From Patagioenas fasciata (taxonomy: Eukaryota; Chordata; Aves; Columbiformes; Columbidae), in the NCBI RefSeq assembly GCF_037038585.1, contig NW_027288510.1, positions 2,919,001 through 2,983,000 on the forward strand: DNA of 64,000 nt, given 5' to 3'. Every line of letters begins with the position of its first letter. Position 1 is the first letter of the stretch. The position numbers were made by a program, and so were the translations under genes. This document shows, piece after piece, positions 6,516 to 39,173 of the stretch. The notes under the pieces were generated by a model, which saw only the letters and a program-made list of their open reading frames with translations, was not told where the DNA came from and made no database searches.

Positions 6516-7084
6516 TGTGCTTTCAGCTCCTGGGCTGGTGCTGTCCGGGCTTTCCCTGCTCAGCACTGACTGTGTTTTGGGAAGGCAGGAGCCAGTGCAA
6601 ACCCTTCTCCGCTGTTCTGCTCTTTTTCTGCTCTTTTTCCCCTTTGCTGTGAAGCTCAGCTGCTCCATGAGTTATTGTGTTCTCCTGTGAGCGTGGGGTT
6701 TGTCCTCTGCTGTGGAGCACGAGAGCGAAGCCCCCGGAGCCCCGGCTGGTGCAGACCCCGCAGCGAGGGTGACAGACCCGGAGCCAGGAGCAGTTTCCCC
6801 AGGGTGAGGAGCAAGTGGAGCTGCTCACACCAAGGGCACAGGCAGGGTTGGTGCACGTCACCGGTTCTAAGGCTGTCACCAGAACCTGACAACCTGACAA
6901 CAGTGTGCTGGCTCCCCGGGCAGTTGAAGTACAACCAGAACGCAAGAGGCAGCTTAAATTCGGGGTCGTCTTTTTGCCAGGAGCAACAAATGCCGTGATG
7001 GAGACAACGGGGAAAAGGTGGAAACTCTCAGACCGCGGTGCAGTCTCAGAGAGGAAAAGAGATGAACGAGACACTGATGAGCGG

Positions 7085-8940
7085 GAAGAGTTGACGTATT
7101 TATCATAGAAACATTAAAGGTTATAGAGAGATGGAATGTTACACGAGATCAAATATTTAAATACATTCGCTCCAGACACAAAATAGTGTTAAAAAGTTCA
7201 TCTATTTATTATAGATACATTAAATATTACACAAAGCTCAAACATGATCTAAAGATCAAACATTAAAATCTACTAACTCCAGACAAGAATTGGTGCGAAA
7301 ACGTTTGCATATTTATTATATAAGTATTAAATATTAAATAAAGATTAAATAGAATACAAAATCAAACATTAAAATATATTAACTCCAGACACAAATTAGT
7401 GGTCAAAAGTTAATCTATTTATTATAGAAACATTCAATATTATATGAAGATTAAATATCATATAAAGATCAAATATTATCTAGAGATCAAACACTAAAAT
7501 CTACTAACTCCAGACGAGAATTGGTGGAATAAAGTTCAAGTATTTATTATATAAATATTAAATAAAGATTATGTATTATATAAAGCTTAAATATTAATCC
7601 TAGTAACTCCAGATCAAAAAGTACTGGAAAAATGTTTACGTATTTTTATAGAAACATTCAATAATATATAGAGATTAAATATGATATAAGGATCAAATAT
7701 TAAACTATATTAACTCCAGACAAAAATTAGTTGAAAAAAGTTATGTATTTGTCATAGAAATGTTACATATCTATAAAAACTAAATACTACATAAGGATCA
7801 AATATTAAAATATTTTAACGCCAGACAAGAATTGGTGGGGGAAAAAAGTTCACAGATTTCTTATGTAAATAAAGATTATGTATTAAATAAAGATTCTGTA
7901 TGATATAAAAGCTCAAATCTTAATATATATTAACTCAAGAGAAGAATTAGTGGAAAAAAAGTGACGTATTTATGATAGAGATGTTACATCCATGTAAAGA
8001 TTGAATATGACATAGGGATCAAATATTAGAATATTTTAATGCCAGACAAGAATTGGTGGAAAAAAGTTCAAGTATTTATTCTATAAATATTAAATAAAGA
8101 TGATGTGTTCTATCAAGCTCAGTTATCAGTATCTATTAACTCCAGAAAAAAAGGGTGGAAAAAAGTTTCTCTATTTATTTTATATGCATCTCTAGATATG
8201 TGATATAAAGCTCAAACACTATCTACAGAAGAAACATTAAAATACATTAACTCCAGACAAAAATGGGTTGAAAAACGTTGATATACTTATCATATCAATA
8301 TTAAATATTATACAAGGATCAAATATTGTATAAAGATTTAATAATAAAATATATCAACTCCAGAAAATAATTATTGGGGAAGGTCTATGTACATAGTAAA
8401 TAAATATTAAATATTAGTACATTAAATAAACATATTAAATAAATATTAAACATTAGTACATTAAATAAACATATCACATAAATATTAAATATCAGTATGT
8501 TAAATAAAAAATATTAAATAAAGCTCAAATACTATATACAGCTAAACCATTTCAATATATTAACTCCAAGGAGAAATTAGTGGAAAAAGTTTACGTACTT
8601 ATTCTGTGAATACTGAATATTATACAAGCTAAAATATTCTATAAAGCTAAGCTATTTAAATATAGGAACTCCAAGCAGACATCAGTAGAAAAAAGATGAT
8701 ATAATATTGAAGGTTTCTGTAGAAGTATGGAAAGATTAAATATGATAAACACATCGAGTATTAAAATACATTAACTGCAGACAAACACTGGAAAAAAGTT
8801 AATATACTCGTTATAGAAATATTCAATATGATACAAAGCTCAAACATTATATACAGGTCACATATTAAAATACATGAACTCCAGACTAAAACTGGGGGGA
8901 AAAAAGTTTACGTACTTATAATATAAACAGTAAATCCTAT
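7085..8940. repeat. AT-rich ~105-bp tandem satellite, unit 1
   Basis: About 1.86 kb of very AT-rich DNA is built from some 16-17 imperfect copies of a ~105-bp monomer. The best-kept marker is 'taactccagac(a)aaaattagtgg' followed by 'aaaaaagttta(c)gtatttatta'. Markers recur near 7,169, 7,275, 7,380, 7,505, 7,607, 7,712, 7,818, 7,931, 8,039, 8,140, 8,250, 8,357, 8,563, 8,669, 8,775 and 8,878. It ends about 15 bp beyond the RGL1-like terminal stop codon. No coding potential is visible. Confidence 0.9.
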
Positions 8941-8954
8941 CCAGAGCTCAGCCA

Positions 8955-11592
8955 TTACAACCCATGAAGTGCGGGCTCCTCCTGTGCTGCAGCTTTTCTT
9001 CTCAGGATGCAGTCGAAGTTGCCCTGGGTGCTCATGGCGTAGAACACGTTCGCCTTGGGTGGGATCGCCAGCTCCGCAAGAGAGGGAGCAGAGCGAGCGT
9101 TCATGGGCGCCCCACTCAGCGTTGGGGGTTTATTCTCACCGGCAGCTGGGACAACGTGGCGATGGCGTTTCTGACGTCGCTCCGCATGTTACTCTTGCCG
9201 GCAAAATGCAGCAGAGCTCTTCCAGCAGCAGCAGCAGCAGCAGAGTTCTGCTTCCCCACCTTTGTCCTCGGAGATGATCTGGACCAGCTCGTAATCCTCA
9301 GCCGAGCCAGACTGCAGGTTGTGCTTCTCCATGGCTCGCTGGGTGACAGCAGGAGCCTTCTCTTGGTTACTCAGCTGCAAAGAGGGAGTTGCAAGGAGTC
9401 GCTTGGTAACCAAGTCGCAGATTCTGCCAGACGCTAAAACACGCTCTTTGCGACACCTGGGGGTGGAGTTAGTTCAAGACAACAGACACTGCTCTAGAAA
9501 TGCAGCAGGGAATCACAGCCTCTGCTCTCCTGAGCAACCGCTCGGAGAGGTGAGACCTTGTTCTCAGCAGCCATCGAATCCGCAGCAAGAGCTGCCCCAG
9601 CTGCTGTTTGCAGACATCCATTAATCCACAGTCTCCCCTGCTAAACACTTTCTGCGATGTCCTGCAAAGATTCTGGGCCTTGGAGCTGGGTTTGCTGGGG
9701 AAGGGGCACCTTGTGTCACAGCTCACACACCCCAGTGCTGAGCTGGACACACAACAGCCGGCGCTGGCAGAAGAGCAGGGGCAGCAAAGCCGGCACTTGC
9801 TCAGAGTGCTTCCCTTGGCATTGTTGATCAAATACAAGCTTCAATTTCAAGGCCAGAAACCTTGAGAGATGCTCTTTGCAAACCTCTCATTCATCCCCTG
9901 CTCCACATGTTTTGATTTGTAACATCGGTCACGTTCCCTGTCAAGGAGGTCTGATCGGGGAATAGGTGTTTCCGAAACTAAAAGCACCATTCAAGTCACC
10001 TGGGGTGAAAACACCACCCACAGTAACAGCGCTTTGCTGTTCCCACCGCTCACCAGGATGCTCCTGTAGATGTTGCCGCTTCTGTCCTCTTCTACGCTGG
10101 TGCGGATGACGCAGCTCTCTCCGCTCTGCTGGTTGTAGACTGGCAGGACTGGCGGCACTTCTTTTGATGGAACGGGAGTCACGGGGCCGGGGCACTTCTT
10201 GGAGCACTTGTCATCAGATGGCAGCAAGGGGGGAGACGAGATCAAACACATTCATTACCATTGAATTTCAAAGATCCAAAAGCTAAAGATGACACTCTTC
10301 AGCACAACAGCCTTAACAAGGGCTTCGGCAACCCAGTTAAGGCAGCTTAGGTCAAGAGAGCAGAGTCTGCAGGACAAAGCTCCCTGGGAACGGAACCCAG
10401 CCCAGCCCAGGCTTGGTCTGGGCAGTTCCTGGCAGGTCAAACCACAGGGCTGGTGAGCTCTGACCTCACCTGCTTCTCACTTGCTCAGCTGCTCTGCCTG
10501 CCCCAGAATTAGGCTGGGCTGATGTACATGAGCCCTCCCCCCAAAATCGCCTTTCCCAGAGCTCAGGTCCCTCCATTCCACGGCCAGCAACGCTCCAGTC
10601 AAGATCCACAGGCTTGGGCAAGCGCCTGGGGCCGCCGGCAGCGTCAGCAGCCTCGCACAGGCTGTTTGTGCTGAACACAGGGCCCGGGCCCTACCTTGTG
10701 CTGAGGCTCCTCAGCAGTGTCGGTGGGAGGGACGATGGTGACGGTGCTGTCCCCAGAGCTCCCACCTGGAGCAGGTTTGGGCTGCGCGTTGACGGGGGTG
10801 CTGAGGGCGCTCACCCCCAAGCCCAGGAACGGCCTAGGGGAGAAAAGAAAGCACAACAGAGCTGGGCTGAGCACAGCTGTCACTTGCTTCAACAATCTGA
10901 CCTGCTGTTGTGTTTTCCTATCTCGAGTGGCCTATTGTTTGTGTGTGTATAGCAAATTAGACTCTATCCTTATTTGCTCTGTTTTGCTGCTGCAAATTTG
11001 AATTGAATTTATAATCCAGCACTAAAATCGTTCCTTTGTCTGACACCTTAGAGTTATTTCTGAAGTCTTTAGTCGATAACCCTCCTGGCTACTTACACCA
11101 ATAGAAAGAGACAACAGCAATACGTATTTCTAGCTGGCAGTGTCTCCTCGCAGCACTGCAGTGCTCTGGATCCCCAGCCAGGTTTGTCAGCTGGTGTTTG
11201 ATTTATTCCAGTTCATATTCACACACCAAACCCCCTCCCCGTTGTACTCACAGGCTGAATCTCTTCACCACGCTCTTCTGAGCTCTGCCCGCTGCGGTGC
11301 TCTGGTCAGGAGCTGCTCCTTCGATTTCACGTGACAGACGGAAACTGCAGAACAGGCAATACCGTTAGTTAAATATCTCAAAGTGGCCATATCTGAGAAG
11401 CCCTGCGTCACTCCCACGTCCCAGAGGGTTCATCCCCACGAGGAGGAGCGCAGCTCTGTGCGTGTGTATTTCCACTCTCCGGGAGCAGCTCCTGGCAGCG
11501 CAGAGCTCAAGGCTGAGAGAACCTGAACCTGCCTGCGGGGGAAGAAAAGCTGCTTCGCCAGCTGGGCTGAGACCCTACCTCTCCTCATCACT
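8955..11592 (-). pseudogene. RGL1: RGL1-like copy 1, 3' exons beyond the TGA (linker and Ras-association domain)
   Basis: These exons continue colinearly after the premature stop: the end of exon 13, then 11344-11252 (block ending KSVVKRFSL), 10833-10695 (Ser/Pro linker), 10206-10054 (PVYNQQSGESCVIR, GNIYRSIL), 9374-9260 (KAPAVTQRAMEKHNL, AEDYELVQIISEDK) and 9073-8955 (PPKANVFYAMSTQGNFDCIL, then an early TAA). Together they form a RalGDS-type Ras-binding fold. Phases fit exactly, so reading through the TGA would restore the family plan. The acceptor of the last exon is GG instead of AG at 9075-9074. The tail after RRK is short (about 12 residues) compared with the longer basic tail I recall for RGL1. 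Confidence 0.8.
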
Positions 11593-14500
11593 TCAATGCC
11601 GCTGCCTCCTAAACCACTGCACGAATTTCTCATCTCCTGTCATGCAATAGCTGTTACATGAGGACTGCAACAGCTTAATTTGTGCGATTACTTCAAACTC
11701 CTAAGAAAACAAATAATAAAATAGGAATTCTAATTAGAAAAATCAAGCCAGTCTCGTTAATACACTAAACACACGCAGCAACAGATCCAGGACAAACTGC
11801 CCTCGGACAGAGGAAACCCCGGCACCTTCGCTCCTACTGATCTCTGACCAACAAGGCTCAGGCTGGAAGGCAACGCTCAGCCTTGATTTCTCGGTCCCAG
11901 GTACCCGCTTCGCTCTCTGCACCTTTGACCCACAACTATTTACTGCAGCACAAGGAAGATGGTCACAGACTGCATCTTGTGGCCAGCAAAGGTCTCACGC
12001 CAGCAGGTCTGATGCGCTCCCAGCACACAGAACACGCTCGTGTAACGTGTTCCCGTGAACACCAAACGGGGGGAACGTGCCCCAGACGTAACTCCCGCGG
12101 CAGCGAGTGCCCTGCGGCTCCTCTTCCCCTGCTGCCCGCATCTAAAAGGAATTTCTCTTCCCGCGCCGCCCCGCACAGCCCGGCAGAGGTTCACAGCGTG
12201 CCGGGGACTGTTCCTTCCTCACCCTCTGAGTAACGTGAGCGGCTGTTGGATACGCCCAGCAAAGACAACAGGCCTCGCCAAGAGAACGCTCTAGCAGAGA
12301 GCGTCAGGCACTAACGATCACAGAACAGTCACCGTTCCACTTACCCTTCGCCGCTTCTCAAAATTGATCAGGCCGCCCTGTTGGAAGGACAGAGAAGGGA
12401 TCGGAGGAGAAGAGCACAGGCTCGGCTGGAGTTAATCACAAACAGGATGAACAGGATGAAGTAGCGACACCAAGGGACGGGCCAGAGCTGCCCTGACCAA
12501 AGGCCTCTACAAAGACCCGTTTCCAGCTCTAGGATAAGCCACAGCACTCGTGTACCTGAGTCTATTTGTTAAATACATTCCTCTCTTTTTAAGAACTGCA
12601 CTAGCACCCAGTGGAAGATGCAGGAGCAGACACAGTGTCTGCAAGGGAGGGAGGAGATTTAGGATTCCAAAAATTGCCCCAAATTACCTCGAGATAGTCC
12701 TGAAGGGCTGTGTCCAGCATGACGAGGTCAGTGAGGAAGGTACCCAGGTAAGGTACCGTGCCTTGTGTGACTCCCTGCAAACGGTCAGAGCAATGGTGGA
12801 TTAATTGACTGAGAAGTCATAATTATACTAATTAGAATACTCCTGTGGAAGCAAACCAAATACAACTAGTCTGCTTCACCAAACAGCGCTCTTGTAAATG
12901 ATGCTTTCACGACATCATCCTTGGTATCTCAGCCAGCGGTTCATGTCTGCACAGAGCGGTATATAAGCCAAAGTGCTCATTCGTAACTCCTCTGCGTCAA
13001 ATCTCGCTGTGCGGCACCTCTCGCCCCAGCAGAAAAGCCGGGATTTACAGACCCGTCTTCCCCAAAGCACCGCATACGGGAGCTCATTGGTCAGGAACAG
13101 GGCTGAGCTCGGCTTTGGGTGAGATCACAACCTGGCAACTCAAGCTCATTCCCACCTTCAGCAGCAGCTCCCTGCTCGTCGCAAAGTTGTCACAGTCGGA
13201 GAAGATTTCGCAAAGCTCTTCGAACATCAGCATTGTGTCCCTGTACAGGAAAAGATTAAATGATTTAAGTTGTTTGTAAGCACTCTGAATCAGATCAGGG
13301 GACAATTTTTTTCTCAAGAATCGTTAACAGTTGGGCACAGAACAGATAAAAGCACCAAAACACATCCAGTGACACACTGCACAGCCTTACTTTGGAACGC
13401 AGGCCCTGGTCTTCTTCAGGCGATAAACCGAGGTGGACTGCAAGGCGGAAACGATGGCCTTCAGAGACGAAAAGTTGTTCAGGATCCTACATTGCTGTGA
13501 AAGGAGCGGTTAGAAACACAGGAGCGTTAAACGTCAGCATCACCAATAGTCAGTGCTCTTCTGTCTGCCCCGTGTCCTGCTTGCTGCACATTCTCCCTGC
13601 TAAGCGGGCAGCTCTACAAATACTGAGCATCAAAAATATCACTCCCCGCTACAACCCCCCTGTCCCCTCCCAGCTCCACGGCACCCGCACAAGGAACGTT
13701 AAACAGTCGCGAATAAACGCTTTACACGTCCGATACGGATCCACTTCTCCAAGATCTTCGCTCTTGGCTGTGTCTTTAATTCTTTGCTCTCCAGGATGGT
13801 GCTGAGCACGCAGTTGGTGACGGCGTTGAACTGCGAGATGGTGGCTCTGATGCTCTGTGCCAGCTGTTTGTTCTCTTTCTTGTCCCTTCGGGACCAGATG
13901 CAGCCCAGGCAGTGGTGGGGCACAACGTTCTGGAAGAGTGTCTAGAGGGAAACAGAGGTGTCCAACTCAGCCTGGAGCGCTACTGCCCACAGCAAGAAAT
14001 GCACGGTTACAGTACAAACTGCAGCTGAATCCAGTATGGTATTAAAAGGGAAATATTGGTTTTCTCTCCAGTTTAAAATATACACTTTGGTATAACTCTT
14101 TAGGCCTGACGCCCTAAAAGAACTGTCAGCTAAACTGTCCTGGAAAAATAAAAGACACCTTTCTATCACTTACATTACCAGGGGGAAAGATTTCCATATC
14201 ATGATACTTTTGAAAGAGATTGATACAAATAAGGCAAATCGGAGCACTACAGTTACAAAGTACTTCTACATCTTCAGGTGAGGTAGCCTAAGATACAGTC
14301 AAAATACGCTATTTCTGAGGGGTCAAATGCTAAACTTTGCAAAAGAGGCCACACAGTCTACATCCACACTGTATAACAAAAAGACAAACACCTTCAGAAG
14401 AACTGAAGGAAAAGCCCAATCAATGAAGCAAGTCTGGATAACCAAGCAGAGCTGCGCTCTGTGTCCCAGCAACAGAGCGGTTCTGGAACAACAGACTTAC

Positions 14501-17500
14501 ACCGATATAAGTTAAAAAACAAACAAACAAACAATGAGAAGCCCAGAACTCTTTCCCCGAGCATTTCAAGTAATACCTATGATCTACATACCGCGTCCAT
14601 GTATGTCAGCTGTTCTGCCACCAGGTCTTCTTGGGACAGCGAGAATTCTTCTGGGCCGCTGATCTCCAGTTCCTCTTCCTCGCCCGGGGTGCAGGGAGAA
14701 AGGCTGTGGAACGCGTCTGGCCAGCGGGGAAAACACGAGTCAGTGAATTTATACAGAAAACAAGTAATCAAAGCAGGTATTTGGAAAATCACTACATAGA
14801 AGAACAGAACATGCAAAGGGACCTGCCTGGGGTAACGGCCTCACCGTGCTGCATATTTTAGGGAGATAGAGAAGGTCCAGAAGATTAAATGGGCAAAGAG
14901 AAGGTAGAAGAAAAAGAAATAGGGAGAACTGAGCTGTTCAGGGTCTCTTAGCTGAGAAGTGCCTTAACCCATTCACTAACCATTCTTTGGAAAGAACAAA
15001 CCCACCAACCCCCCCACAACAACTCCTTATTAACACTGCAGAACTTTGATAATCTGCTTGTCAGCATTTACGCATTCTATACTCTGAAAAACAGCTGAAC
15101 TGCAAAGAGACAAGACTGCAATTATACCCCCAAAATATTACGCTGAGAATGCTCTTATGTCCACGTTTCAAGGGAAGAGGAGGAGAAGGGAGAGAGACCA
15201 GTTGGAAAGTTAAAACGTGCTTTGCTAGTACTACTGATGAGGAGAGAAAGTAATGCAAAATATACGAAACCAATCGTGGCTCCAGCAGCTTCAGGACAGG
15301 CCCCCGGACGCCCTGGGCTGGACTCGGCACTAAACCAGAGCTGGATTCAGGGCTGCAGGGCTGTACAGAATTGATCAGCAGCCTTGGCTGCCGCAGCACT
15401 AAGTCTAAACCTGGGCCTTTTCTGCACACCAGTCCTACCGTTATGCGCTCCAGAGCCAACGGGGTCTGAGAAACACGCAGGTAACGTGAGAAAAATGCAT
15501 GTAGTAGAACTCAGTCTGCCTACTAAGGCTGGAAGTTGATTCCAGTACTCATTCACATACCACGTGAGCTCTTACGACTTTTCGGCTCACGGCACAGGAA
15601 GCTTTGTGCTCTGGATAAGGGGATGTGTCAGGCTTGACGCTGGGAGAACACACAGACAGCAGAGAAAGGTACTTTACCATCATTCTCCCATTCTTCTTTC
15701 TGGAACTGCTCCAGGAGGTTCTGCGCCCTCTTCTCCGGGTCAGAGCCGGGCATGTTCTTCTTCAGATAACTCAGCACCTTCTGCAGACACACGTACTCGG
15801 GCGGCTCTCGGAAATCGTCGGCACATTGGTCGAGCCAGGCTTGTAAAATCGATGCCATCGCACTGTGAGCAAATTCAGAGAGAACACATGGGTTGTATGC
15901 AGCAGGTATTGATGCAATCGCATGGATCTGTACCTAATATAACAACAGGAACACTGAGACATTCATCCCCCATGTGAGGGCAGTATGGACACTTCTGTGA
16001 GCACAGAATTTAATTTGTTCTTTTTAGGCAAGAAATATTATTAAGATAATACTTCATAGGAAACTAAAGGCTGCTTCTTCAATTACACCTTGAGAAACCA
16101 GCGCAGTCATTCATATTTTCTCTGTGTTGTGCTCTGCTGCCCACGTCCCGCTCCAGCACCGAACCCTGACTGGGGCTCGCTGGGCGCTGCAAAACCAAAC
16201 TTACGTCCTGAGCACTGTGCTGGATCCGGGGGAATTCTGGGTTCCATGTTCTTCAGAGCCCGAGATCTCCAGGTTTCCGTATCTGAAAAAATGAGATGGC
16301 TGTTTAGAGGAACCTCTACTGAGCAACCCAAACAGCGTAATCCATATACAATTGGCATAAACATATAGATATTGGCATATTCATATACAATTGGCATGAA
16401 GACAAGGGCTTCATGCTGGACAATTCCACCGTGGCTGGGGAAGCTGCGGCAGAGATGAAGGGTTTGCACATATCCCCCGTGCACTGGTCTTTTTTTAAGG
16501 GACAAGCTGTATTGGTTTTCTTGTGTCGGTCCCAGTTTGGTTCCTTAGCGGTCAGACCACGCACGCTTTCCCCACCTGGCGCTTAAGCTTTAATGAGATT
16601 TGGGATGTGGGCAACGTGCATTTACACATGGTGTGTTTACGCTGAAATCCTGAATTTTGCAGGATTCTTTTCTGTCAACATCCCCCTGTCGTGTATAATA
16701 AATGACGGCTCAGTTTCCATTCTGTCCCGGCTCTCACCTGTCCAGGAGCAGTTCCAGGACTGTGCTGGTGGAAGCAAAGGCCCTGTACGTGGAGAGGAAG
16801 ATGCTGATGTATGTGAAGTCATTATCGGCAAAGGCCGTCGGAAGCGTCTCCACCAGCTTTTCCAAAGTTCCAGCTTTCAGGGCCCTGCTGTTGCACGTCT
16901 CGTCCGGGCTGACAGTGTGTCCTGCAGGGAACTGGTCCCCTTCAGCCTACAAAGTGGAAACAAAGACAAAGCACAAAACTCAGACAGAAGCCAGAGCCCC
17001 GACAGAGCTTGCACAACGAAACACAGATTCCATTCCACCTTTTCACAGGAATAGTCCATCTCTAGTTACTAAACAATTTTGTCGGTTTGGGCTCTCCAAA
17101 CACCAAATGCTGTATCAAATACTGGAGGACAATCAAGACATTTCTTATTGAAACAGCCAAGTGTTTCCAGTGCTTAAGCTGTAATCTCCTGGTTGCCTTT
17201 GAAACTGACCATTCTCTCATAACAGGGCCAACCATTCAAAAACCCCGGATGCTTTCTTAGCATCCAGAAGTTTAAGAAAGGTTTCTCAGACTTCTTGCAG
17301 CATGAAAGATCTAAGTTCCTTCACTTACTCCAACCTCTACAAGAAAATACTAAGCAAGGTTTCAAGCTTCTCAGTACTTAAAGGAATTGGTAATAAAGCC
17401 CAACTCACTCAAAATGAACAAAAACAGTTGTATTCCTTTCAACACGGGTTCTATGAAATTTTCAGTTAGAGCTGCATTTCTCTCAGACACATCCACTACC

Positions 17501-20247
17501 AGCCAACACTTTTCAGCTGAAAAGCCTCCAAATCACTCTACAAATGCAGCATCACTAAGAACTCTTCCCATCAGCTGGAAAATGTACAGGAGGTCAAAAA
17601 TACTTTCTGCTGTTTCTCCCGGTAAAAACAGGAGGCAGAGATGGGAAATCTGCCACTCAAAGTCTCTATACTACCAACCTGGACACCACACCAAAGCAAG
17701 TTCTTATATTATTGCCTTGGATCCTGAAGAAAATGTAGAAACATCGCAACATAACATGAAAGTTCTACCCACCTCCTGACCCTCTGGCTCAAACTGCCAC
17801 AGCTGCACCGATTGCAATGAAGTGAGGACACTTTGATCAGCTGGGGGCTTGGCCACCATGCCAGCTTTACTTACCCCGAGCCATCTTGCTCCTTCGCTGT
17901 CAGTCTGCTGGATCTGCGCTCTTCTCAGGCTGTCGCAGTCAACAGCTCCTTCTTGTGCGTCTTCAGCTCCATCCTCAGTTGTGCTCTGCCAGGAAAAGGG
18001 CCAAGAGAAACAAGTCAGAGAGAAAGGAACATGGTCCCTGCACAAGCGCAGGCTGCAGACACCAGCATGCCAGCACCAGGATCTCACAACACCTCAAAAA
18101 CGCTCACTTCAGTTGCCACTTTTTAGCTGCCTTCAGTTACCTGGGCCTTTTTGGGCTTTTAACTGAAAGCAGAGAGGAGCTGAGTGCACAACTTACTGCA
18201 CAAGTCAATGAAAGAGGTAAGAATTAAACCAGAGAGTCCAGATCTCCTGAACCCCACCACTAACAGCCGCTGTATTAACATGCTGATACATGTTGAGGAG
18301 CAAAGCACTAGAGAATTGAAAATAGATGTAACAATTAACTTCAGAAATACATCTACTGGTCCCCCTGCAACCACATAATGCTTTTTCTGCATACATACCA
18401 CTTGAATAATTAAAGTTTCAGGGCTTTACTGACTACCATAGCCTTAAGCACAGCAACAACTCAATTAGAAAGGATTTGAGTGCAGTGCAACCAAATCCTG
18501 GTTTGGGGAAGCTGGGGTTTGGGGTTTTTTTGGGGGTTGCTTTTCTGGTTTTTTTTTACCTCTTTTAACTCTAAAATATCCCTAAGTCATACAGAACTGT
18601 CTGTGCACCAGTGACTTGCCTCTTGAACGCTCTGTGGAACCTCCACGTCTTCCCCAGGTTGGTTCCTCACATTTTCTTCCAGGCTCTGTGGAGTCTCCAC
18701 GTCTTCTTCAGTTGGCTCGCTTGGAGTCTCCTCTGTGCACTCTGCAGTCTCTGTGTCTTCCTCTGTTGCCTTGCTTAGACCGTTCTCAACGCGCTCTGGA
18801 GTCTCTGCGTCTTTGTCTGATACCTTGCTTGTAGTCTCCACATCTTCCTCTCTTGTCTCGCTTAGAGTCTGCTCAATGCGCTCTGGAGTCTCCTCAACGC
18901 GCTCTGGAGGCTCCTCAGTACACTCTGGGCTCTCCACTTCTTCCTTGGTTGGCTTGGTCAGAGTCTCCTCAAGGCTGTGCAGAGACTCCACATCTTCCTC
19001 GTGTCTCTTCTGCCTGGGTGTCCTCCTCCTTGGTCTTCTCCAGCATCTCCAAAGAGACAGGTTCCGAAAGGGGAAGTTCCGAGCCTGTTAGAAAACAACG
19101 GAAAAACAGTTTTGAATTGCAGATAGCAACACATTTACTTTTAACGTCCTTGCAAAAGTACCGGGACAAGATCACATGAACCCTGAAATTCAGACACTAT
19201 TACAATGCAAAAAATAGACAGGATCATAGAAACATTTTGGTTGGAAGAGACCATCGAGTGCAACCGTCAACCCACCCCTGGCACTGCCCCATGTCCCTCA
19301 GGACCTCATCTATGTCCCTTTTAAACCCCTCCAGGGATGGTGACCCCACCGCTGCCATGGGCAGCCTGTTCCAATGTCTAATAACCCTTTCACAGAATCC
19401 CAGAATCCCAGAATGTCAGGGGTTGGAAGGGACCTGGAAAGCTCATCCAGGAGCAGGAACACCCAGCTGAGGTTCCACAGGAAGGGGTCCAGGCGGGTTT
19501 GAATGTCTGCAGAGAAGGAGACTCCACAACCCCCATGGGCAGCCTGGGCCAGGCTCTGACACCCTCACCATGAAGAAGTTTCTTGTCAAATTTAAGAGGA
19601 ACCTTTTGTGTCTCAGTTTGTACCCGTCACCCCTTGTCCTGTCACTGGTTGTCACTGAGAAGAGCCTGGCTCCATCCTCCTGACACTCACCCTTTACATA
19701 TTTATAAACATTAATGAGGTCACCCCTCAGTCTCCTCTTCTCCAGCTCCAGAGCCCCAGCTCCCTCAGCCTTTCCTCCCACGGGAGATGCTCCACTCCCT
19801 TCAGCATCTTGGTGGCTGCGCTGGACTCTCTGCAGCAGTTCCCTGTCCTTCTGGAGCTGAGGGGCCACAACTGGACACAATATTCCAGGTGTGGTCTCCC
19901 CAGGGCAGAGCAGAGGGGCAGGAGAACCTCTCTGACCTACTGACCACCCCCTTCTAACCCACCCCGGGTATCATTGGCTTCCTGGCCACAAGGGCCCAGT
20001 GCTGGCTCATGGTTTTCCTTCCTCAGTGTGATATATCACACTATATTTCAAATTTAATCTCTTTTTTTTAGCCATGCCTTTTAAGAAATGAGAAAGCATT
20101 ACACAAATCCCTTTTATGAAGTGAAACTGCAAAAAGAACTATTACATTTTTTAGCACTAAAGGGACAATTTACCTGGGGAGGGCGGGCGGCGGGGCCCGG
20201 CTCGCTCATACCCGTCCGCAGCAGGGCCCGCAGCCGATCCCGCACAT
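11593..20247 (-). CDS. RGL1: RGL1-like Ral guanine-nucleotide exchange factor, copy 1 (exons 1-13 up to TGA)
   Basis: RGL1-type proteins load GTP onto Ral GTPases downstream of Ras. Exons (minus strand) are 20247-20212, 19084-18620, 17985-17875, 16946-16738, 16282-16205, 15862-15678, 14716-14592, 13941-13726, 13494-13391, 13240-13156, 12774-12688, 12377-12345 and 11700-11579. Phases match throughout, giving 613 codons before TGA 11595-11593. Domains in order are an acidic repeat N-terminus (to about residue 167), a block with [15 protein letters not shown], the Ras-exchanger motif ([42 protein letters not shown]), then CDC25 blocks. These are [92 protein letters not shown] and [19 protein letters not shown]. 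Exon 1 and the GC-AG donor ending exon 2 are inferred. An exon usual between exons 10 and 11 was not found. The TGA would remove the Ras-association domain and, if spliced normally, expose the mRNA to nonsense-mediated decay. Confidence 0.75.
15170..15350. mobile_element. LTR fragment in RGL1-like copy 1 intron 6
   Basis: The stretch ('gaaagttaaaacgtgctttgctagtactactgatgagg' to 'ccagagctggattcagg') parallels 54,955-55,112, which belongs to an ERV LTR. It therefore appears to be a diverged LTR fragment of the same family. The same fragment sits in copy 2 at about 31,398-31,578. Confidence 0.6.
18620..19084 (-). CDS. RGL1-like copy 1, exon 2: Glu/Thr-rich repeat N-terminus
   Basis: This 155-codon exon opens with a basic stretch ([12 protein letters not shown]). 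It then carries about ten imperfect acidic repeats of 12-13 residues (patterns such as [16 protein letters not shown] and [16 protein letters not shown]), each with 'TE..T/E.V/PE' character. It is preceded by a good acceptor (ttctaacag). Its likely 5' splice site is GAG|GCAAGT, matching the GC-AG donor consensus, and joins in phase 0 to exon 3. I do not recall this segment in known RGL proteins. It may be disordered. The exon is intact in both full copies. Confidence 0.55.
19217..20010 (-). mobile_element. Two adjacent CR1 LINE fragments in RGL1-like copy 1 intron 1
   Basis: The first fragment (about 19,217-19,392) is a CR1 3' end with 'ggttggaagagaccatcgag' and 'agggatggtgaccccaccgctgccatgggcagcc'. 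The second (about 19,393-20,010) starts with 'cacagaatcccagaatcccagaatg'. On the minus strand it contains the C-terminal part of the CR1 reverse-transcriptase ORF ([28 protein letters not shown]). Frames are broken. Both lie between the candidate first exon and exon 2. Confidence 0.85.
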
Positions 20248-20660
20248 GGCGCTGTGTCCGCGTCCGCAGGCAGGGCTGCTGCCGGCTCCGCCAGCCCCGC
20301 ACTCCCGCTCTCTCTCGCACCGACCGCTCGCCCCCACGCCAACGGCGGCGACGGCTCCGCCGGCACCACGGCGACCGGACGCGGCCTCGCGGCGGCACGC
20401 GCCGCCCGCAGCCGGCCAATCGCAGCTCGCCGCCGCTCCGCGCGCGCCCCCTTGCCCCGCCCTCAGCCCGCCCGCAGTCCGAGCCCTTGCTCAGCCGGAC
20501 AAGGCGCCGGGAGCGGGACGGACGGACCGAGCCGGGAGCGTGGGCATCAGACTGTGCGTGGAACACAACGTGTGCTGCGGCAGAGCCCGGGGCGAGCGCT
20601 CCCGGAGCTGCTTCACGCACACGCACCACGCGCGGGGATTTTACTCCTGGCCCTTTAAAG
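20165..20660 (-). promoter_or_regulatory. CpG-island promoter of RGL1-like copy 1
   Basis: A ~500-bp very GC-rich, CpG-dense block lies at the 5' end of the minus-strand gene. It contains a CCAAT box (20416-20420) and Sp1-type GC boxes (about 20455-20475), typical of a TATA-less vertebrate promoter. A short candidate first coding exon (20247-20212, twelve codons, Cys/Gly-rich) ends at CGG|GTATGA and joins in frame to exon 2. Long open frames across this block on both strands are an effect of base composition. Confidence 0.7.
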
Positions 20661-20689
20661 ATTCCTAGCACAATTGCTTACATACAGTT

Positions 20690-22745
20690 CTGAACTAGAT
20701 ATTCATTCTGTGGCTTAAAGTGTTAGTTCGTTAGTAGGCTCTTATTATGTAGTTGGTTAACCCTTTAAAATGTTATTTCCCTCTATCAATATAACTTCAT
20801 AAACAAGTTTCCTAACTTTTTACATAGAACTTCACCACCTTTTCCTTTTCCAGGTTCAGAGCCCGTGCCCCATTTGGTTATATCTGTAAACATTAAACAT
20901 CTTCTCAGCACGAACCACAGCTGCATTTCTCACAGTTCCCCTTTTTGCTTTTTATCCCATTGATTCGTGCTTTGACTTCAAAGTTAGCCAGCACCTGCCT
21001 AAAATCATTAATTTATACCCCGTTCCTTTTGTTGCCATTTCAGGATCGATAGGCATGGCTGAGATTTGCATGCCTTGGACTGCTGAATGTAGTAACTGAA
21101 TAAAGCACGGGATCATGCACGGCACAAACAGTAAACGCAGAAATGCACATACTATCACGAACCCTATTTTCTTCCACCAGGCTACAGTTTCGAGACCAAT
21201 ATCCATTAGGTGGACCTGGCCACCAAGTGGGAGGAATAGAGGTACTTGACGAATTTGCCCTCAACGCTAACTGACAAGGGGTTCGTCCAACGTATTCAGT
21301 CATTTGAGACCCCCCACATATCCAGCACGAGGTGACATTTAATTCTCGGGCTGTCTTTTCCATAAGATCTATAAACAGGTTTTTCCCTGCTGTCGGTAAT
21401 TGTAATCCTTTGTCTTTTTGCCTTATTTCCTCATACCAATCACTGCTGTTCTGTACCAATTTCTGTTGCTCTTGCTTTCCTTTTAATTCCTGAGTGGCAC
21501 TCTTAACTAACTCCTCCTTCTACTGATCTTGCACTCCCCCTCCATCTGAATAGCCCCACTCACCACCTTGTGTAAAACAGATCCTCTGTTCTCCCCTAGG
21601 GCAGGAGGCAGAGCCTACAGCGAGTCCACCTTTCTCTAGGTTAGTTGCTACCCATCATTCCTGCCCTTGGATTTCACACTTCTCCAATTTTGTTCTATCA
21701 TAACATCCAGAATTAATAGGAGCGTGATAATGTAGAACATGTTGGGTTAGTCTCCCTATTCTCACACGCTCGTAGCACTTGGTACAGGGATTGGCCAGGC
21801 TAAGTTGGGAACAATAAGTCACCACTGCCAGCAAGGGGATCAGGTCCAGGGTTCTGCACCCTCTGCCTCTCTGGCCGACCAGGCTGCAGCCGCAGCCGAG
21901 TTCGTCATCTTCTCGGCAGCAAGGGCCGTGTCCCCGCCTTTCCTGTTTTTACCGTTAGCGTGGCGACTTTTTATCGTTTCCCAACTCTTGGCCTTCACTT
22001 CCCAGGAACAACAGGAGCAACACGGAATGTGGTTTCTCTGTCTGCACTCTGTTCTCCTCATCACTGGTGGGCTCTAAATTCCCATTCACCCCTTCAGTAA
22101 ATACCTCCCACCATTCTCCGCTATTCTTTTTCTATTCTTCCAGCGGCAACTGGAATCCTCAACCGAGCCCCGGTTTCCTTATCTTCTGTTCTTAGACATT
22201 TCTTACACAATCCTGTCGGTAAGTTCCCTTTGTGGATATGCTTATACCACAGTCCATTTACAACCTAAACATCAGATATAAAATGAGAATTACATATACA
22301 ACTCGGTTCAACACATTTAGCTATTAAGCCATTCTCATTTTCATTTATACTGGGCATTCACATCAATAACACTAATAGTAGTTACATCACCAATCCCGTG
22401 TCAACTTCAATTTCAGTTCCCCTGGTTCTTGAGTTACTTTCCAGGTTCTTTCTTCCGTCAGGGCTCCTCTAACTCGAGAGACGCGTGTCCATCCTTTCCC
22501 TGCCTCCCAACAGCTGTTTCTGTAGTTAACAAAACAAGAAAAGTTCCCTCCCATCATGGGGTTGGAGTTTCTCTTTTCAGGTTTTCATTAGTGTTGCCCC
22601 CATATCTACCAGAAATTCTACTTGTTTGTTCTTTTGGGTTTCTTCTTCCCAATGCGGTGAGCACCACCCAGGCTGCTCACCCAGAAGGACTAAAACTGCT
22701 TCCCAGTGCAACCCCAAACACCCTTCACTTCAGCAGGTGACCGCA
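20690..22745 (-). mobile_element. ERV remnant (env and partial LTR), unit 1
   Basis: On the minus strand the order is a pol-end/env-start region (about 22,620-22,180), env surface-subunit sequence with a CWIC motif in NVTSCWICGGSQMTEYVGR (about 21,460-21,240), and the env transmembrane-subunit end with a hydrophobic anchor (about 21,206-20,952). A polypurine tract (about 20,949-20,938) and an LTR beginning TGTGAGAAATG at 20,934 follow. Stops and frameshifts interrupt env. The LTR runs in the same direction as the RGL1-like gene and gives way to its CpG island near 20,670. The 5' part of the ERV is cut at the duplication junction. Confidence 0.8.
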
Positions 22746-23316
22746 CTTGTGCTTTCAGCTCCTGGGCTGGTGCTGTCCGGGCTTTCCCTGCTCAGCACTG
22801 ACTGTGTTTTGGGAAGGCAGGAGCCAGTGCAAACCCTTCTCCGCTGTTCTGCTCTTTTTCTGCTCTTTTTCCCCTTTGCTGTGAAGCTCAGCTGCTCCAT
22901 GAGTTATTGTGTTCTCCTGTGAGCGTGGGGTTTGTCCTCTGCTGTGGAGCACGAGAGCGAAGCCCCCGGAGCCCCGGCTGGTGCAGACCCCGCAGCGAGG
23001 GTGACAGACCCGGAGCCAGGAGCAGTTTCCCCAGGGTGAGGAGCAAGTGGAGCTGCTCACACCAAGGGCACAGGCAGGGTTGGTGCACGTCACCGGTTCT
23101 AAGGCTGTCACCAGAACCTGACAACCTGACAACAGTGTGCTGGCTCCCCGGGCAGTTGAAGTACAACCAGAACGCAAGAGGCAGCTTAAATTCGGGGTTG
23201 TCTTTTTGCCAGGAGCAACAAATGCCGTGATGGAGACAACGGGGAAAAGGTGGAAACTCTCAGACCGCGGTGCAGTCTCAGAGAGGAAAAGAGATGAACG
23301 AGACACTGAGGAGCGG

Positions 23317-25172
23317 GAAGAGTTGACGTATTTATCATAGAAACATTAAAGGTTATAGAGAGATGGAATGTTACACGAGATCAAATATTTAAATACATTC
23401 GCTCCAGACACAAAATAGTGTTAAAAAGTTCATCTATTTATTATAGATACATTAAATATTATACAAAGCTCAAACATGATCTAAAGATCAAACATTAAAA
23501 TCTACTAACTCCAGACAAGAATTGGTGGGAAAACGTTTGCATATTTATTATATAAGTATTAAATATTAACTAAAGATTAAATAGAATACAAAATCAAACA
23601 TTAAAATATATTAACTCCAGACACAAATTAGTGGTCAAAAGTTAATCTATTTATTATAGAAACATTCAATATGAGATAAAGATTAAATATCATATAAAGA
23701 TCAAATATTATCTAGAGATCAAACACTAAAATCTACTAACTCCAGACGAGAATTGGTGGAATAAAGTTCAAGTATTTATTATATAAATATTAAATAAAGA
23801 TTATGTATTATATAAAGCTTAAATATTAATCCTAGTAACTCCAGATCAAAAAATACTGGAAAAATGTTTACGTATTTTTATAGAAACATTCAATAATATA
23901 TAGAGATTAAATATGATATAAGGATCAAATATTAAACTATATTAACTCCAGACAAAAATTAGTTGAAAAAAGTTATGTATTTGTCATAGAAATGTTACAT
24001 ATCTATAAAAACTAAATACTACATAAGGATCAAATATTAAAATATTTTAACGCCAGACAAGAATTGGTGGGGGAAAAAAGTTCACATATTTATTATGTAA
24101 ATAAAGATTATGTATTAAATAAAGATTATGTATGATATAAAAGCTCAAATCTTAATATATATTAACTCAAGAGAAGAATTAGTGGAAAAAAGTGACGTAT
24201 TTATGATAGAGATGTTACATCCATGTAAAGATTGAATATGACATAGGGATCAAATATTAGAATATTTTAATGCCAGACAAGAATTGGTGGAAAAAAGTTC
24301 AAGTATTTATTCTATAAATATTAAATAAAGATGATGTGTTCTATAAAGCTCAGTTATTAGTATCTATTAACTCCAGAAAAAAAGGGTGGAAAAAAGTTTC
24401 TCTATTTATTTTATATGCATCTCTAGATATGTGATATAAAGCTCAAACACTATCTACAGAAGAAACATTAAAATACATTAACTCCAGACAAAAATGGGTT
24501 GAAAAACGTTGATATACTTATCATATCAATATTAAATATTATACAAGGATCAAATATTGTATAAAGATTTAATAATAAAATATATCAACTCCAGAAAATA
24601 ATTATTGGGGAAGGTCTATGTACATAGTAAATAAATATTAAATATTAGTACATTAAATAAACATATTAAATAAATATTAAACATTAGTACATTAAATAAA
24701 CATATCACATAAATATTAAATATCAGTATGTTAAATAAAAAATATTAAATAAAGCTCAAATACTATATACAGCTAAACCATTTCAATATATTAACTCCAA
24801 GGAGAAATTAGTGGAAAAAGTTTACGTACTTATTCTGTGAATACTGAATATTATACAAGCTAAAATATTCTATAAAGCTAAGCTATTTAAATATAGGAAC
24901 TCCAAGCAGACATCAGTAGAAAAAAGATGATATAATATTGAAGGTTTCTGTAGAAGTATGGAAAGATTAAATATGATAAACACATCGAGTATTAAAATAC
25001 ATTAACTGCAGACAAACACTGGAAAAAAGTTAATATACTCGTTATAGAAATATTAAATATGATACAAAGCTCAAACATTATATACAGGTCACATATTAAA
25101 ATATATGAACTCCAGACTAAAACTGGGGGGAAAAAAGTTTACGTACTTATAATATAAACAGTAAATCCTATC
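23317..25172. repeat. AT-rich ~105-bp tandem satellite, unit 2
   Basis: Near-identical copy of the unit-1 satellite with the same monomer order. The two arrays therefore duplicated as blocks rather than expanding independently. Confidence 0.9.
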
Positions 25173-25185
25173 CAGAGCTCAGCCA

Positions 25186-27820
25186 TTACAACCCATGAAG
25201 TGCGGGCTCCTCCTGTGCTGCAGCTTTTCTTCTCAGGATGCAGTCGAAGTTGCCCTGGGTGCTCATGGCGTAGAACACGTTCGCCTTGGGTGGGATCGCC
25301 AGCTCCGCAAGAGAGGGAGCAGAGCGAGCGTTCATGGGCGCCCCACTCAGCGCTGGGGGTTTATTCTCACCGGCAGCTGGGACAACGTGGCGATGGCGTT
25401 TCTGACGTCGCTCCGCATGTTACTCTTGCCGGCAAAATGCAGCAGAGCTCTTCCAGCAGCAGCAGCAGCAGAGTTCTGCTTCCCCACCTTCGTCCTCGGA
25501 GATGATCTGGACCAGCTCGTAATCCTCGGCCGAGCCAGACTGCAGGTTGTGCTTCTCCATGGCTCGCTGGGTGACAGCAGGAGCCTTCTCTTGGTTACTC
25601 AGCTGCAAAGAGGGAGTTGCAAGGAGTCGCTTGGTAACCAAGTCGCAGATTCTGCCAGACGCTAAAACACGCTCTTTGCGACACCTGGGGGTGGAGTTGG
25701 TTCAAGACAACAGACACTGCTCTAGAAATGCAGCAGGAAATCACAGCCTCTGCTCTCCTGAGCAACCGCTCGGAGAGGTGAGACCTTGTTCTCAGCAGCC
25801 ATCGAATCCGCAGCAAGAGCTGCCCCAGCTGCTGTTTGCAGACATCCATTAATCCACAGTCTCCCCTGCTAAACACTTTCTGCGATGTCCTGCAAAGATT
25901 CTGGGCCTTGGAGCTGGGTTTGCTGGGGAAGGGGCACCTTGTGTCACAGCTCACACACCCCAGTGCTGAGCTGGACACACAACAGCCGGCGCTGGCAGAA
26001 GAGCAGGGGCAGCAAAGCCGGCACTTGCTCAGAGTGCTTCCCTTGGCATTGTTGATCAAATACAAGCTTCAATTTCAAAGCCAGAAACCTTGAGAGATGC
26101 TCTTTGCAAACCTCTCATTCATCCCCTGCTCCACATGTTTTGATTTGTAACATCGGTCACGTTCCCTGTCAAGGAGGTCTGATCGGGGAATAGGTGTTTC
26201 CGAAACTAAAAGCACCATTCAAGTCACCTGGGGTGAAAACACCACCCACAGTAACAGCGCTTTGCTGTTCCCACCGCTCACCAGGATGCTCCTGTAGATG
26301 TTGCCGCTTCTGTCCTCTTCTACGCTGGTGCGGATGACGCAGCTCTCTCCGCTCTGCTGGTTGTAGACTGGCAGGACTGGCGGCACTTCTTTTGATGGAA
26401 CGGGAGTCACGGGGCCGGGGCACTTCTTGGAGCACTTGTCATCAGATGGCAGCAAGGGGGGAGACGAGATCAAACACATTCATTACCATTGAATTTCAAA
26501 GATCCAAAAGCTAAAGATGACACTCTTCAGCACAACAGCCTTAACAAGGGCTTCGGCAACCCAGTTAAGGCAGCTTAGGTCAAGAGAGCAGAGTCTGCAG
26601 GACAAAGCTCCCTGGGAACGGAACCCAGCCCAGCCCAGGCTTGGTCTGGGCAGTTCCTGGCAGGTCAAACCACAGGGCTGGTGAGCTCTGACCTCACCTG
26701 CTTCTCACTTGCTCAGCTGCTCTGCCTGCCCCAGAATTAGGCTGGGCTGATGTACATGAGCCCTCCCCCCAAAATCGCCTTTCCCAGAGCTCAGGTCCCT
26801 CCATTCCACTGCCAGCAACGCTCCAGTCAAGATCCACAGGCTTGGGCAAGCGCCTGGGGCCGCCGGCAGCGTCAGCAGCCTCGCACAGGCTGTTTGTGCT
26901 GAACACAGGGCCCGGGCCCTACCTTGTGCTGAGGCTCCTCAGCAGTGTCGGTGGGAGGGACGATGGTGACGGTGCTGTCCCCAGAGCTCCCACCTGGAGC
27001 AGGTTTGGGCTGCGCGTTGACGGGGGTGCTGAGGGCGCTCACCCCCAAGCCCAGGAACGGCCTAGGGGAGAAAAGAAAGCACAACAGAGCTGGGCTGAGC
27101 ACAGCTGTCACTTGCTTCAACAATCTGACCTGCTGTTGTGTTTTCCTATCTCGAGTGGCCTATTGTTTGTGTGTGTATAGCAAATTAGACTCTATCCTTA
27201 TTTGCTCTGTTTTGCTGCTGCAAATTTGAATTGAATTTATAATCCAGCACTAAAATCGTTCCTTTGTCTGACACCTTAGAGTTATTTCTGAAGTCTTTAG
27301 TCGATAACCCTCCTGGCTACTTACACCAACAGAAAGAGACAACAGCAATACGTATTTCTAGCTGGCGGTGTCTCCTCGCAGCACTGCAGTGCTCTGGATC
27401 CCCAGCCAGGTTTGTCAGCTGGTGTTTGATTTATTCCAGTTCATATTCACACACCAAACCCCCTCCCCGTTGTACTCACAGTCTGAATCTCTTCACCACG
27501 CTCTTCTGAGCTCTGCCCGCTGCGGTGCTCTGGTCAGGAGCTGCTCCTTCGATTTCACGTGACAGACGGAAACTGCAGAACAGGCAATACCGTTAGTTAA
27601 ATATCTCAAAGTGGCCATATCTGAGAAGCCCTGGGTCACTCCCACGTCCCAGAGGGTTCATCCCCACGAGGAGGAGCGCAGCTCTGTGCGTGTGTATTTC
27701 CACTCTCCGGGAGCAGCTCCTGGCAGCGCAGAGCTCAAGGCTGAGAGAACCTGAACCTGCCTGCGGGGGAAGAAAAGCTGCTTCGCCAGCTGGGCTGAGA
27801 CCCTACCTCTCCTCATCACT
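25186..27820 (-). pseudogene. RGL1: RGL1-like copy 2, 3' exons beyond the TGA (linker and Ras-association domain)
   Basis: Exons are the end of exon 13, then 27572-27480, 27061-26923, 26434-26282, 25602-25488 and 25304-25186, matching copy 1. The last exon again has GG where the AG acceptor should be (25306-25305), so this lesion predates the duplication. In exon 17 the residue after ISED is Glu, not Lys as in copy 1. The intronic CAG run just downstream of exon 17 has six units against seven in copy 1. Confidence 0.8.
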
Positions 27821-36673: not shown

Positions 36674-37086
36674 GGCGCTGTGTCCGCGTCCGCAGGCAGG
36701 GCTGCTGCCGGCTCCGCCAGCCCCGCACTCCCGCTCTCTCTCGCACCGACCGCTCGCCCCCACGCCAACGGCGGCGACGGCTCCGCCGGCACCACGGCGA
36801 CCGGACGCGGCCTCGCGGCGGCACGCGCCGCCCGCAGCCGGCCAATCGCAGCTCGCCGCCGCTCCGCGCGCGCCCCCTTGCCCCGCCCTCAGCCCGCCCG
36901 CAGTCCGAGCCCTTGCTCAGCCGGACAAGGCGCCGGGAGCGGGACAGACGGACCGAGCCGGGAGCGTGGGCATCAGACTGTGCGTGGAACACAACGTGTG
37001 CTGCGGCAGAGCCCGGGGCGAGCGCTCCCGGAGCTGCTTCACGCACACGCACCACGCGCTGGGATTTTACTCCTGGCCCTTTAAAG
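36591..37086 (-). promoter_or_regulatory. CpG-island promoter of RGL1-like copy 2
   Basis: Copy of the unit-1 island with the same CCAAT box and GC boxes and the same candidate first exon (36673-36638). It differs by only a few substitutions, so both genes should have equal promoter capacity. Confidence 0.7.
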
Positions 37087-37115
37087 ATTCCTAGCACAAT
37101 TGCTTACATACAGTT

Positions 37116-39173
37116 CTGAACTAGATATTCATTCTGTGGCTTAAAGTGTTAGTTCGTTAGTAGGCTCTTACTATGTAGTTGGTTAACCCTTTAAAATGTT
37201 ATTTCCCTCTATCAATATAACTTCATAAACAAGTTTCCTAACTTTTTACATAGAACTTCACCACCTTTTCCTTTTCCAGGTTCAGAGCCCGTGCCCCATT
37301 TGGTTATATCTGTAAACATTAAACATCTTCTCAGCACGAACCACAGCTGCATTTCTCACAGTTCCCCTTTTTGCTTTTTATCCCATTGATTCGTGCTTTG
37401 ACTTCAAAGTTAGCCAGCACCTGCCTAAAATCATTAATTTATACCCCGTTCCTTTTGTTGCCATTTCAGGATCGATAGGCATGGCTGAGATTTGCATGCC
37501 TTGGACTGCTGAATGTAGTAACTGAATAAAGCACGGGATCATGCATGGCACAAACAGTAAACGCAGAAATGCACATACTATCACGAACCCTATTTTCTTC
37601 CACCAGGCTACAGTTTCGAGACCAATATCCATTAGGTGGACCTGGCCACCAAGTGGGAGGAATAGAGGTACTTGACGAATTTGCCCTCAACGCTAACTGA
37701 CAAGGGGTTCGTCCAACGTATTCAGTCATTTGAGACCCCCCACATATCCAGCACGAGGTGACATTTAATTCTCGGGCTGTCTTTTCCATAAGATCTATAA
37801 ACAGGTTTTTCCCTGCTGTCGGTAATTGTAATCCTTTGTCTTTTTGCCTTATTTCCTCATACCAATCACTGCTGTTCTGTACCAATTGCTGTTGCTCTTG
37901 CTTTCCTTTTAATTCCTGAGTGGCACTCTTAACTAACTCCTCCTTCTACTGATCTTGCACTCCCCCTCCATCTGAATAGCCCCACTCACCACCTTGTGTA
38001 AAACAGATGCTCTGTTCTCCCCTAGGGCAGGAGGCAGAGCCTACAGCGAGTCCACCTTTCTCTAGGTTAGTTGCTACCCATCATTCCTGCCCTTGGATTT
38101 CACACTTCTCCAATTTTTTTCTACCATAACATCCAGAATTAATAGGAGCGTGATAATGTAGAACATATTGGGTTAGTCTCCCTATTCTCACACGCTCGTA
38201 GCACTTGGTACAGGGATTGGCCAGGCTAAGTTGGGAACAATAAGTCACCACTGCCAGCAAGGGGATCAGGTCCAGGGTTCTGCACCCTCTGCCTCTCTGG
38301 CCGACCAGGCTGCAGCCGCAGCCGAGTTCGTCATCTTCTCGGCAGCAAGGGCCGTGTCCCCGCCTTTCCTGTTTTTACCGTTAGCGTGGCGACTTTTTAT
38401 CGTTTCCCAACTCTTGGCCTTCACTTCCCAGGAACAACAGGAGCAACACGGAATGTGGTTTCTCTGTCTGCACTCTGTTCTCCTCATCACTGGTGGGCTC
38501 TAAATTCCCATTCACCCCTTCAGTAAATACCTCCCACCATTCTCCGCTATTCTTTTTCTATTCTTCCAGCGGCAACTGGAATCCTCAACCGAGCCCCGGT
38601 TTCCTTATCTTCTGTTCTTAGACATTTCTTACACAATCCTGTCGGTAAGTTCCCTTTGTGGATATGCTTATACCACAGTCCATTTACAACCTAAACATCA
38701 AATATAAAATGAGAATTACATATACAACTCGGTTCAACACATTTAGCTATTAAGCCATTCTCATTTTCGTTTATACTGGGCATTCACATCAATAACACTA
38801 ATAGTAGTTACATCACCAATCCCGTGTCAACTTCACTTTCAGTTCCCCTGGTTCTTGAGTTACTTTCCAGGTTCTTTCTTCCATCAGGGCTCCTCTAACT
38901 CGAGAGACGCGTGTCCATCCTTTCCCTGCCCTCCCAACAGCTGTTTCTGTAGTTAACAAAACAAGAAAAGGTCCCTCCCATCATGGGGTTGGAGTTTCTT
39001 CTTTTCAGGTTTTCATTAGTGTTGCCCCCATATCTACCAGAAATTCTACTTGTTTGTTCATTTGGGTTTCTTCTTCCCAATGCGGTGAGCACCACCCAGG
39101 CTGCTCACCCAGAAGGACTAAAACTGCTTCCCAGTGCAACCCCAAACACCCTTCACTTCAGCAGGTGACCGCA
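37116..39173 (-). mobile_element. ERV remnant (env and partial LTR), unit 2
   Basis: Near-identical copy of the unit-1 ERV remnant: env surface part about 37,885-37,466, transmembrane end 37,632-37,378, LTR start about 37,360. It again leads into the CpG island of the RGL1-like gene. The same env stops are shared, so the ERV was already defective when duplicated. Confidence 0.8.

Follow-up and report, generated by a model that had tools for sequence, protein, structure and literature searches.

Two full copies and one partial copy of an RGL1-like gene occupy much of a 64,000-nucleotide stretch of the Patagioenas fasciata genome (the window, 64 kb), and they are very probably duplicated, unprocessed pseudogenes of a columbid-specific, RGL1-derived family, stemming from one member that was dead before it was amplified. 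As in other unprocessed pseudogenes, introns are kept, disabling lesions are shared among copies, and both parts of the gene drift neutrally. An initial annotation had left two readings open, namely that selection favoured a Ras-uncoupled exchange factor while the rest decayed, or that the gene died before amplification. The evidence below argues for the second, with the amendment that loss of a splice acceptor probably preceded the shared stop codon.

Self-BLAST of the 64-kb window resolves repeat units of 16.2-16.4 kb that are 99.3-99.9% identical to one another. These units and the genes they carry are as follows.

6516-22747, repeat unit 1, 16.2 kb (self-BLAST)
22748-39175, repeat unit 2 (self-BLAST)
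39176-44557, repeat unit 3, partial (self-BLAST)
20247-8955, minus strand, copy 1 of the RGL1-like gene, 18 exons
20200-20690, minus strand, CpG island across the copy 1 start (CpG o/e 1.05-1.17, GC 0.77-0.78, in 200-bp steps at 20200 and 20400)
20212-20247, minus strand, copy 1 exon 1
18620-19084, minus strand, copy 1 exon 2, acidic repeat N-terminus, GC donor
17985-17875 and 16946-16738, minus strand, copy 1 exons 3-4
16282-16205, 15862-15678 and 14716-14592, minus strand, copy 1 exons 5-7
13941-13726, 13494-13391, 13240-13156, 12774-12688 and 12377-12345, minus strand, copy 1 exons 8-12, RasGEF domain (Pfam)
11579-11700, minus strand, copy 1 exon 13, which holds the TGA
11593-11595, minus strand, TGA stop in copy 1 exon 13
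11344-11252, 10833-10695, 10206-10054 and 9374-9260, minus strand, copy 1 exons 14-17, past the stop, most of the RA domain
8955-9073, minus strand, copy 1 exon 18, acceptor at 9075-9074 reading GG, not AG
25186-36673, minus strand, copy 2, same exon set, TGA and GG acceptor as copy 1
about 36600-37100, CpG island at the copy 2 start, as in copy 1
33093-33263, minus strand, copy 2 exon 4, a 54-bp unit present three times, adding 36 residues within RasGEF_N
40580-44467, minus strand, copy 3, exons 8-16 only, TGA as in copy 1, lacking exons 1-7 and 17-18

Joining exons 1-12 of copy 1 to the first 35 codons of exon 13 yields 613 codons whose exon lengths and phases show no frameshift, and copy 2 agrees, bearing out the earlier description of a phase-perfect frame that ends at TGA 11595-11593. 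Splice sites follow the GT/AG rule except for the GC donor after exon 2 and the GG acceptor of exon 18; the latter, previously noted as a dead acceptor in the 3' part, is indeed present in copies 1 and 2. A second possible start lies just 3' of exon 1 of copy 1 and is the one chosen in the public model P0002. Upstream of the TGA, Pfam recognizes RasGEF_N (65 bits) and RasGEF (192 bits, positions 2-181 of 181), and downstream it recognizes RA (52 bits). Because domains are matched on both sides of the TGA, the gene identification is far beyond chance. The family has RasGEF_N, RasGEF and RA in this order, and in the window copies RA is found only past the TGA. The proposal that a shared stop cuts off the Ras-association domain stands. 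Copy 2 differs by an in-frame 108-bp expansion of RasGEF_N, amounting to two additional 54-bp units. Copies 1 and 2 each retain an intact CpG island at the start, which counts against the pseudogene reading.

Several other elements share the window. In units 1 and 2, the gene is flanked on its 3' side by an AT-rich tandem array with a period of about 106 bp (7097-8364 and 23378-24595). Each of these units also holds one minus-strand ORF (21040-21519 and 37466-37945) that by eye, from a motif, resembles retroviral env; a Pfam search of ORF 21040-21519 gave no match. The adjoining segment 21527-22265 is 92% identical to 55804-56532 on the opposite strand. A SNORD45 snoRNA is located at 50804-50888 on the minus strand (54.3 bits), and no exon of a host gene, sought beside it by eye in translated frames as RABGGTB, was recognized. 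A 1.1-kb direct repeat (58601-59735 and 61402-62536, 99.4% identical) lies near a CpG-rich region at 60.2-61.3 kb.

By sequence comparison, the window genes belong to a columbid-specific family derived from RGL1. The family is nearest to RGL1, not to RALGDS, RGL2 or RGL3; nearly all non-columbid hits among the 120 of 1226 matches listed are named RGL1, and identity to the listed RGL1 proteins is mostly 66-76% over the shared part. The best structural-chain matches of the RA domain are RGL and RGL1 (1ef5, 7scw). The closest proteins are P. fasciata models P0001-P0005 and P0018, with 87-99% identity over the aligned part, and RGL1 proper resides at a separate locus (contig C6, 13.115-13.156 Mb). 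All 20 of 20 relatives of the acidic N-terminal exon (residues 1-185) come from Patagioenas, Columba or Caloenas. We also scored positions that are 98% or more invariant in 100 other RGL1 relatives. Before the stop position, every one of 17 family sequences is altered at 30 to 44 of the 238-263 invariant positions covered; the short P0018, partial copy 3 and P0003, whose model is wrong in this part, were left out. The pigeon's own RGL1 (P0017) has 0 of 263 altered before the stop position and 4 of 65 after it.

Public gene models annotate truncated proteins from this family, including a P0001 cluster of 13 members; an AlphaFold2 model of P0001 (mean pLDDT 38.9) was left out of the analysis. 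Among Columba models, P0010 and P0013, which have the intact codon, run into intron 15 and P0008 runs into intron 12, and none has an RA domain, which may reflect annotation or be real. In Caloenas nicobarica, models P0124-P0128 are RGL1-like with a long N-terminus, and four of the five are preceded by a P450 domain (PF00067). P450 sequence like that of the Caloenas models was sought within the 64-kb window and none was found.

Elsewhere in the host genome, copies of the gene are abundant. The exon-13 site has 148 matches with up to two mismatches, and at least 109 copies carry the exact TGA, the 100 among the matches listed sitting on 12 contigs; counts of so large a family from a genome search are lower bounds. 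Exon 6 has 122 matches with up to three mismatches, and 86 of the 100 listed are exact and outside C6. Exons before exon 8 are absent from window copy 3, from copy L042 on C30, and from the single copies on C8 and C10. At the stop codon, 32 of the 100 exon-13 sites listed read TTA (Leu): 27 on C6, 3 on C19, and 1 each on C8 and C10. The C6 sites form an array of 27 tandem copies at 37.75-38.31 Mb, in which 25 of 26 gaps measure 19.6-21.3 kb. Four copies on C36, near 1.87-2.75 Mb and 3.58-4.46 Mb, recur at a fixed offset of 1,711,263 bases; either a large segment is duplicated or the assembly is at fault, and in the latter case the copy count would be inflated by 4. Confinement of the array to the W chromosome was considered and is unlikely: CHD1 is a Z/W marker, and the four CHD1-like exon matches fall on C47, C48, C16 and C23, none of which holds any of the TGA copies listed.

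The relatives on other contigs also suggest an order for the two shared lesions. The TGA differs from TTA, the codon of the C6, C8, C10 and C19 relatives, by a single T>G change. The exon-18 acceptor pattern has 130 matches in the host genome with up to two mismatches, and of the 100 listed GG is present in 89 and AG in 11 (7 on C6, 2 on C19, 1 each on C37 and C47). A GG acceptor together with TTA at the stop codon is seen in the copies on C8 and C10; because of this combination, the acceptor was probably lost before the TGA arose, although these two copies are nearly identical and partial and count as one observation. On C37, one TGA copy (583622) has AG at its 3' end (581099), and therefore back mutation or conversion does occur.

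We examined selection in 36 of the at least 109 TGA copies, comprising the 3 window copies and 33 others (L042-L074) that were hand-picked for spread over contigs. The comparison covers exons 8-13; exons 1-7 were compared for the pair of window copies 1 and 2 alone. Before the stop, these copies carry 25 nonsynonymous (N) and 5 synonymous (S) variants, which are not independent owing to shared descent and possible gene conversion among the copies. Variants per site are 0.0511 for N, 0.0356 for S and 0.0509 for introns, giving a pN/pIntron of 1.01 (95% interval 0.63-1.54); S variants are too few, but within chance (P 0.13). With N per site equal to the intron value, purifying selection on the RasGEF part was not detected across exons 8-13 of the 36 copies. 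No nonsense codon precedes the stop in any of them, and about 1.1 would be expected among 30 changes; like the truncated proteins in public models, this weighs against the pseudogene reading. In 13 TGA copies compared over exons 8-17 (L045, with a misaligned 3' end, L050, a misaligned deletion copy, and copy 3 were set aside), N per site is 0.0306 before the stop and 0.0331 after it, with 0.0297 in introns. The TGA copies sampled thus evolve neutrally on both sides of the stop, and equal neutral rates in the two parts are what the initial annotation had said would indicate a plain pseudogene. The same drift, shared by copies of a family with at least 109 TGA members, fits its alternative suggestion that the gene died just before amplification.

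Physical decay is also visible among the 36 copies. The exon-10 donor is GG in 3 and GC in 1, and in one copy exons 11-12 and most of exon 10 are missing. The RasGEF residues L501 and/or W505 are lost in 14 of 36. Leu and Trp occupy these positions in every non-columbid relative that has the motif (164 of 164), in all 19 columbid proteins that cover them and lack this TGA, and, by alignment, in RGL2, RasGRF1 and RalGPS1. In the window, the REM and RasGEF part is damaged in all three copies: copy 1 carries W505R, copy 2 has 36 additional residues, and copy 3, which lacks exons 1-7, carries both L501R and W505R.

These observations bear on the possibility that some TGA copies encode a selected, Ras-independent Ral exchange factor consisting of REM and RasGEF without RA. 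The RasGEF_N and RasGEF profiles are nearly complete before the TGA, L501 and W505 are both kept in 22 of the 36 sampled copies, and the truncated product is annotated in public models. RA-less relatives are, moreover, accepted in print, as one source leaves RGL4 off its list of RA-containing proteins (PMC8163975). We nevertheless consider such a factor very unlikely, given the neutral N rate before the stop and the lack of a clean copy among the three in the window. Likewise, the solved RGL2 exchange construct (4jgw_A) extends about 16 residues beyond the TGA position. If the downstream exons are spliced, the TGA also predicts nonsense-mediated decay, for which the 50-nt rule is established. 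A selected, Ras-uncoupled exchange factor, as first proposed, is therefore not what the copies indicate: the part before the stop changes as fast as introns do (25 N : 5 S), and RasGEF residues and splice sites are being lost.

Comparisons with intact lineages yield a different picture of the family. Before the stop position, the C6 copy L040 and the C19 copy L075 differ by 18 N : 28 S (w, or dN/dS, 0.18-0.20; C19 exon 8 not covered), and after it by 16 N : 11 S (w 0.43). A second C19 copy, L076, was set aside in favour of L075, as its 48 N : 22 S after the stop versus C6 reflects a misaligned exon 17. Within the 27 C6 copies there are 3 N : 3 S in exons 11-13 (pN/pS 0.29) and 6 N : 6 S in exons 13-15 (pN/pS 0.32). 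The intact lineages on C6 and C19 are under constraint. By Fisher tests, the 25:5 ratio of the TGA copies differs from the 18:28 between C6 and C19 (P 1.5e-4) and from the 9:9 within the C6 array (P 0.022); against the 13:10 of the copy 1 to C6 divergence, P is only 0.063. Frame and splice sites are kept in exons 12-15 of the 27 C6 copies save for one exon-14 donor, and a 3-nt deletion in exon 14 is common to all. Two C6 copies read across exons 3-18 have an open frame and a complete RA domain, one of them with a broken exon-14 donor. Tentatively, and with somewhat less than an even chance of being right, we suggest that pigeons have a functional, strongly amplified RalGEF family, with at least 27 selected, intact-codon copies on C6 and a new acidic N-terminal exon, of which the more than 100 TGA copies would be a dead and still spreading offshoot.

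A further alternative is that selection kept the truncated lineage as an RA-less gene for a time after the TGA arose and released it only recently. Copy 1 versus C6 gives 13 N : 10 S with w 0.37 before the stop and 16 N : 5 S with w about 0.97 after it, as such a history might produce. However, the C8 relative, which has no TGA, shows a similar contrast with C6 (14 N : 10 S, w 0.40 before; 17 N : 7 S, w 0.74 after), as does the C6-C19 pair above; therefore much of the contrast predates the TGA. The RA half was already faster in lineages without the TGA, such that comparison with a single outgroup can mimic RA-specific decay, and we judge this alternative very unlikely as well.

At the protein level, changes are not in excess past the stop and the window copies do not stand apart from intact Columba models, so relaxed and dead copies look alike by these measures. 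Branch lengths before and after the stop are 0.063 and 0.088 on the window stem and 0.051 and 0.073 on the Columba path to P0009. Three-taxon counts for copy 1 versus P0009 are 21 v 18 before and 15 v 12 after. Copy 1 is altered at 40 of 263 RGL1-invariant positions before the stop and 14 of 65 after it, with 36 and 11 for P0009. When copies are compared with one another, RGL1-invariant positions account for 12 of 18 and 7 of 12 differences among intact Columba models and for 9 of 12 among TGA copies. By this count the intact models are no better preserved than the TGA copies, a point against the pseudogene reading.

Rescue by splicing or early polyadenylation could in principle keep some copies coding, either through an in-frame skip of exons 13-15, which total 354 nt, a multiple of three, or through ends in intron 14 (AATAAA 11207) or intron 17 (AATAAA 9134). 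Model P0003 skips exons 12-13, and P0003, P0006 and P0129 extend beyond the exon-17 donor, but all three are predicted models. The two AATAAA motifs on the gene strand within 8400-20300 are, by our estimate, not above chance, and rescue would not alter the neutral drift of exons 8-13 in any such product. We consider this explanation, too, very unlikely.

Under the pseudogene reading, the ancestor of the window lineage would have lost the exon-18 acceptor and later acquired TTA>TGA in exon 13. The dead gene might then have been carried passively in segments, mostly of 14-21 kb, that spread to at least 12 contigs and, multiplying in tandem, reached at least 109 copies. The pre-stop frame would be open mainly through recent amplification (divergence between copies 1 and 2 is 0.6%), not through retention. 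Copies 1 and 2 differ by 6 N : 0 S, or 8 : 0 with copy 3, counts too few to be used alone, and about one disabling change would be expected between them under neutrality in 1839 bp; the open frame (P 0.35) is therefore no evidence for selection. The 27-copy C6 array appears to be the working version: all its copies have TTA, and the two followed across exons 3-18 also have the AG acceptor and a complete RA domain.

That a frame is open tells little when copies are this nearly identical; in the TGA copies sampled, the half still open changes as fast as introns do. Truncated copies are listed as proteins in public models, which matters for gene-family counts in birds. With a constrained array and a large dead array in one genome, the family offers a natural setting in which to ask why one is kept and the other multiplies. 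In the literature on RGL1 in pigeons, Columba or Columbidae and on the band-tailed pigeon genome, we found no paper on an amplified RGL1-like family. Related sources describe four RA-bearing RalGEFs (PMC12630027), RA structures (PMC10576006) and a table of Ras partners (PMC5558186).

The family resembles several known systems in part. It shares with RGL1 the common order of RasGEF_N, RasGEF and RA, but has other first exons (the acidic repeat), a shorter linker and altered invariant positions, and the window copies add the TGA and a dead last acceptor. A would-be product of the window copies parallels RGL4/Rgr, the RA-less RalGDS relatives, in being a RasGEF without usable RA, although there is no sign of constraint in the TGA copies sampled; the RGL4 side of this comparison draws on PMC8163975. 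Lineage-specific tandem or segmental amplifications that carry dead passengers are also similar, given near-identical tandem units, at least 109 copies sharing one nonsense change, and neutral drift in those sampled. Unlike in those systems, the passenger here is a signalling gene, and an intact sister array of 27 copies persists on C6 in the same genome.
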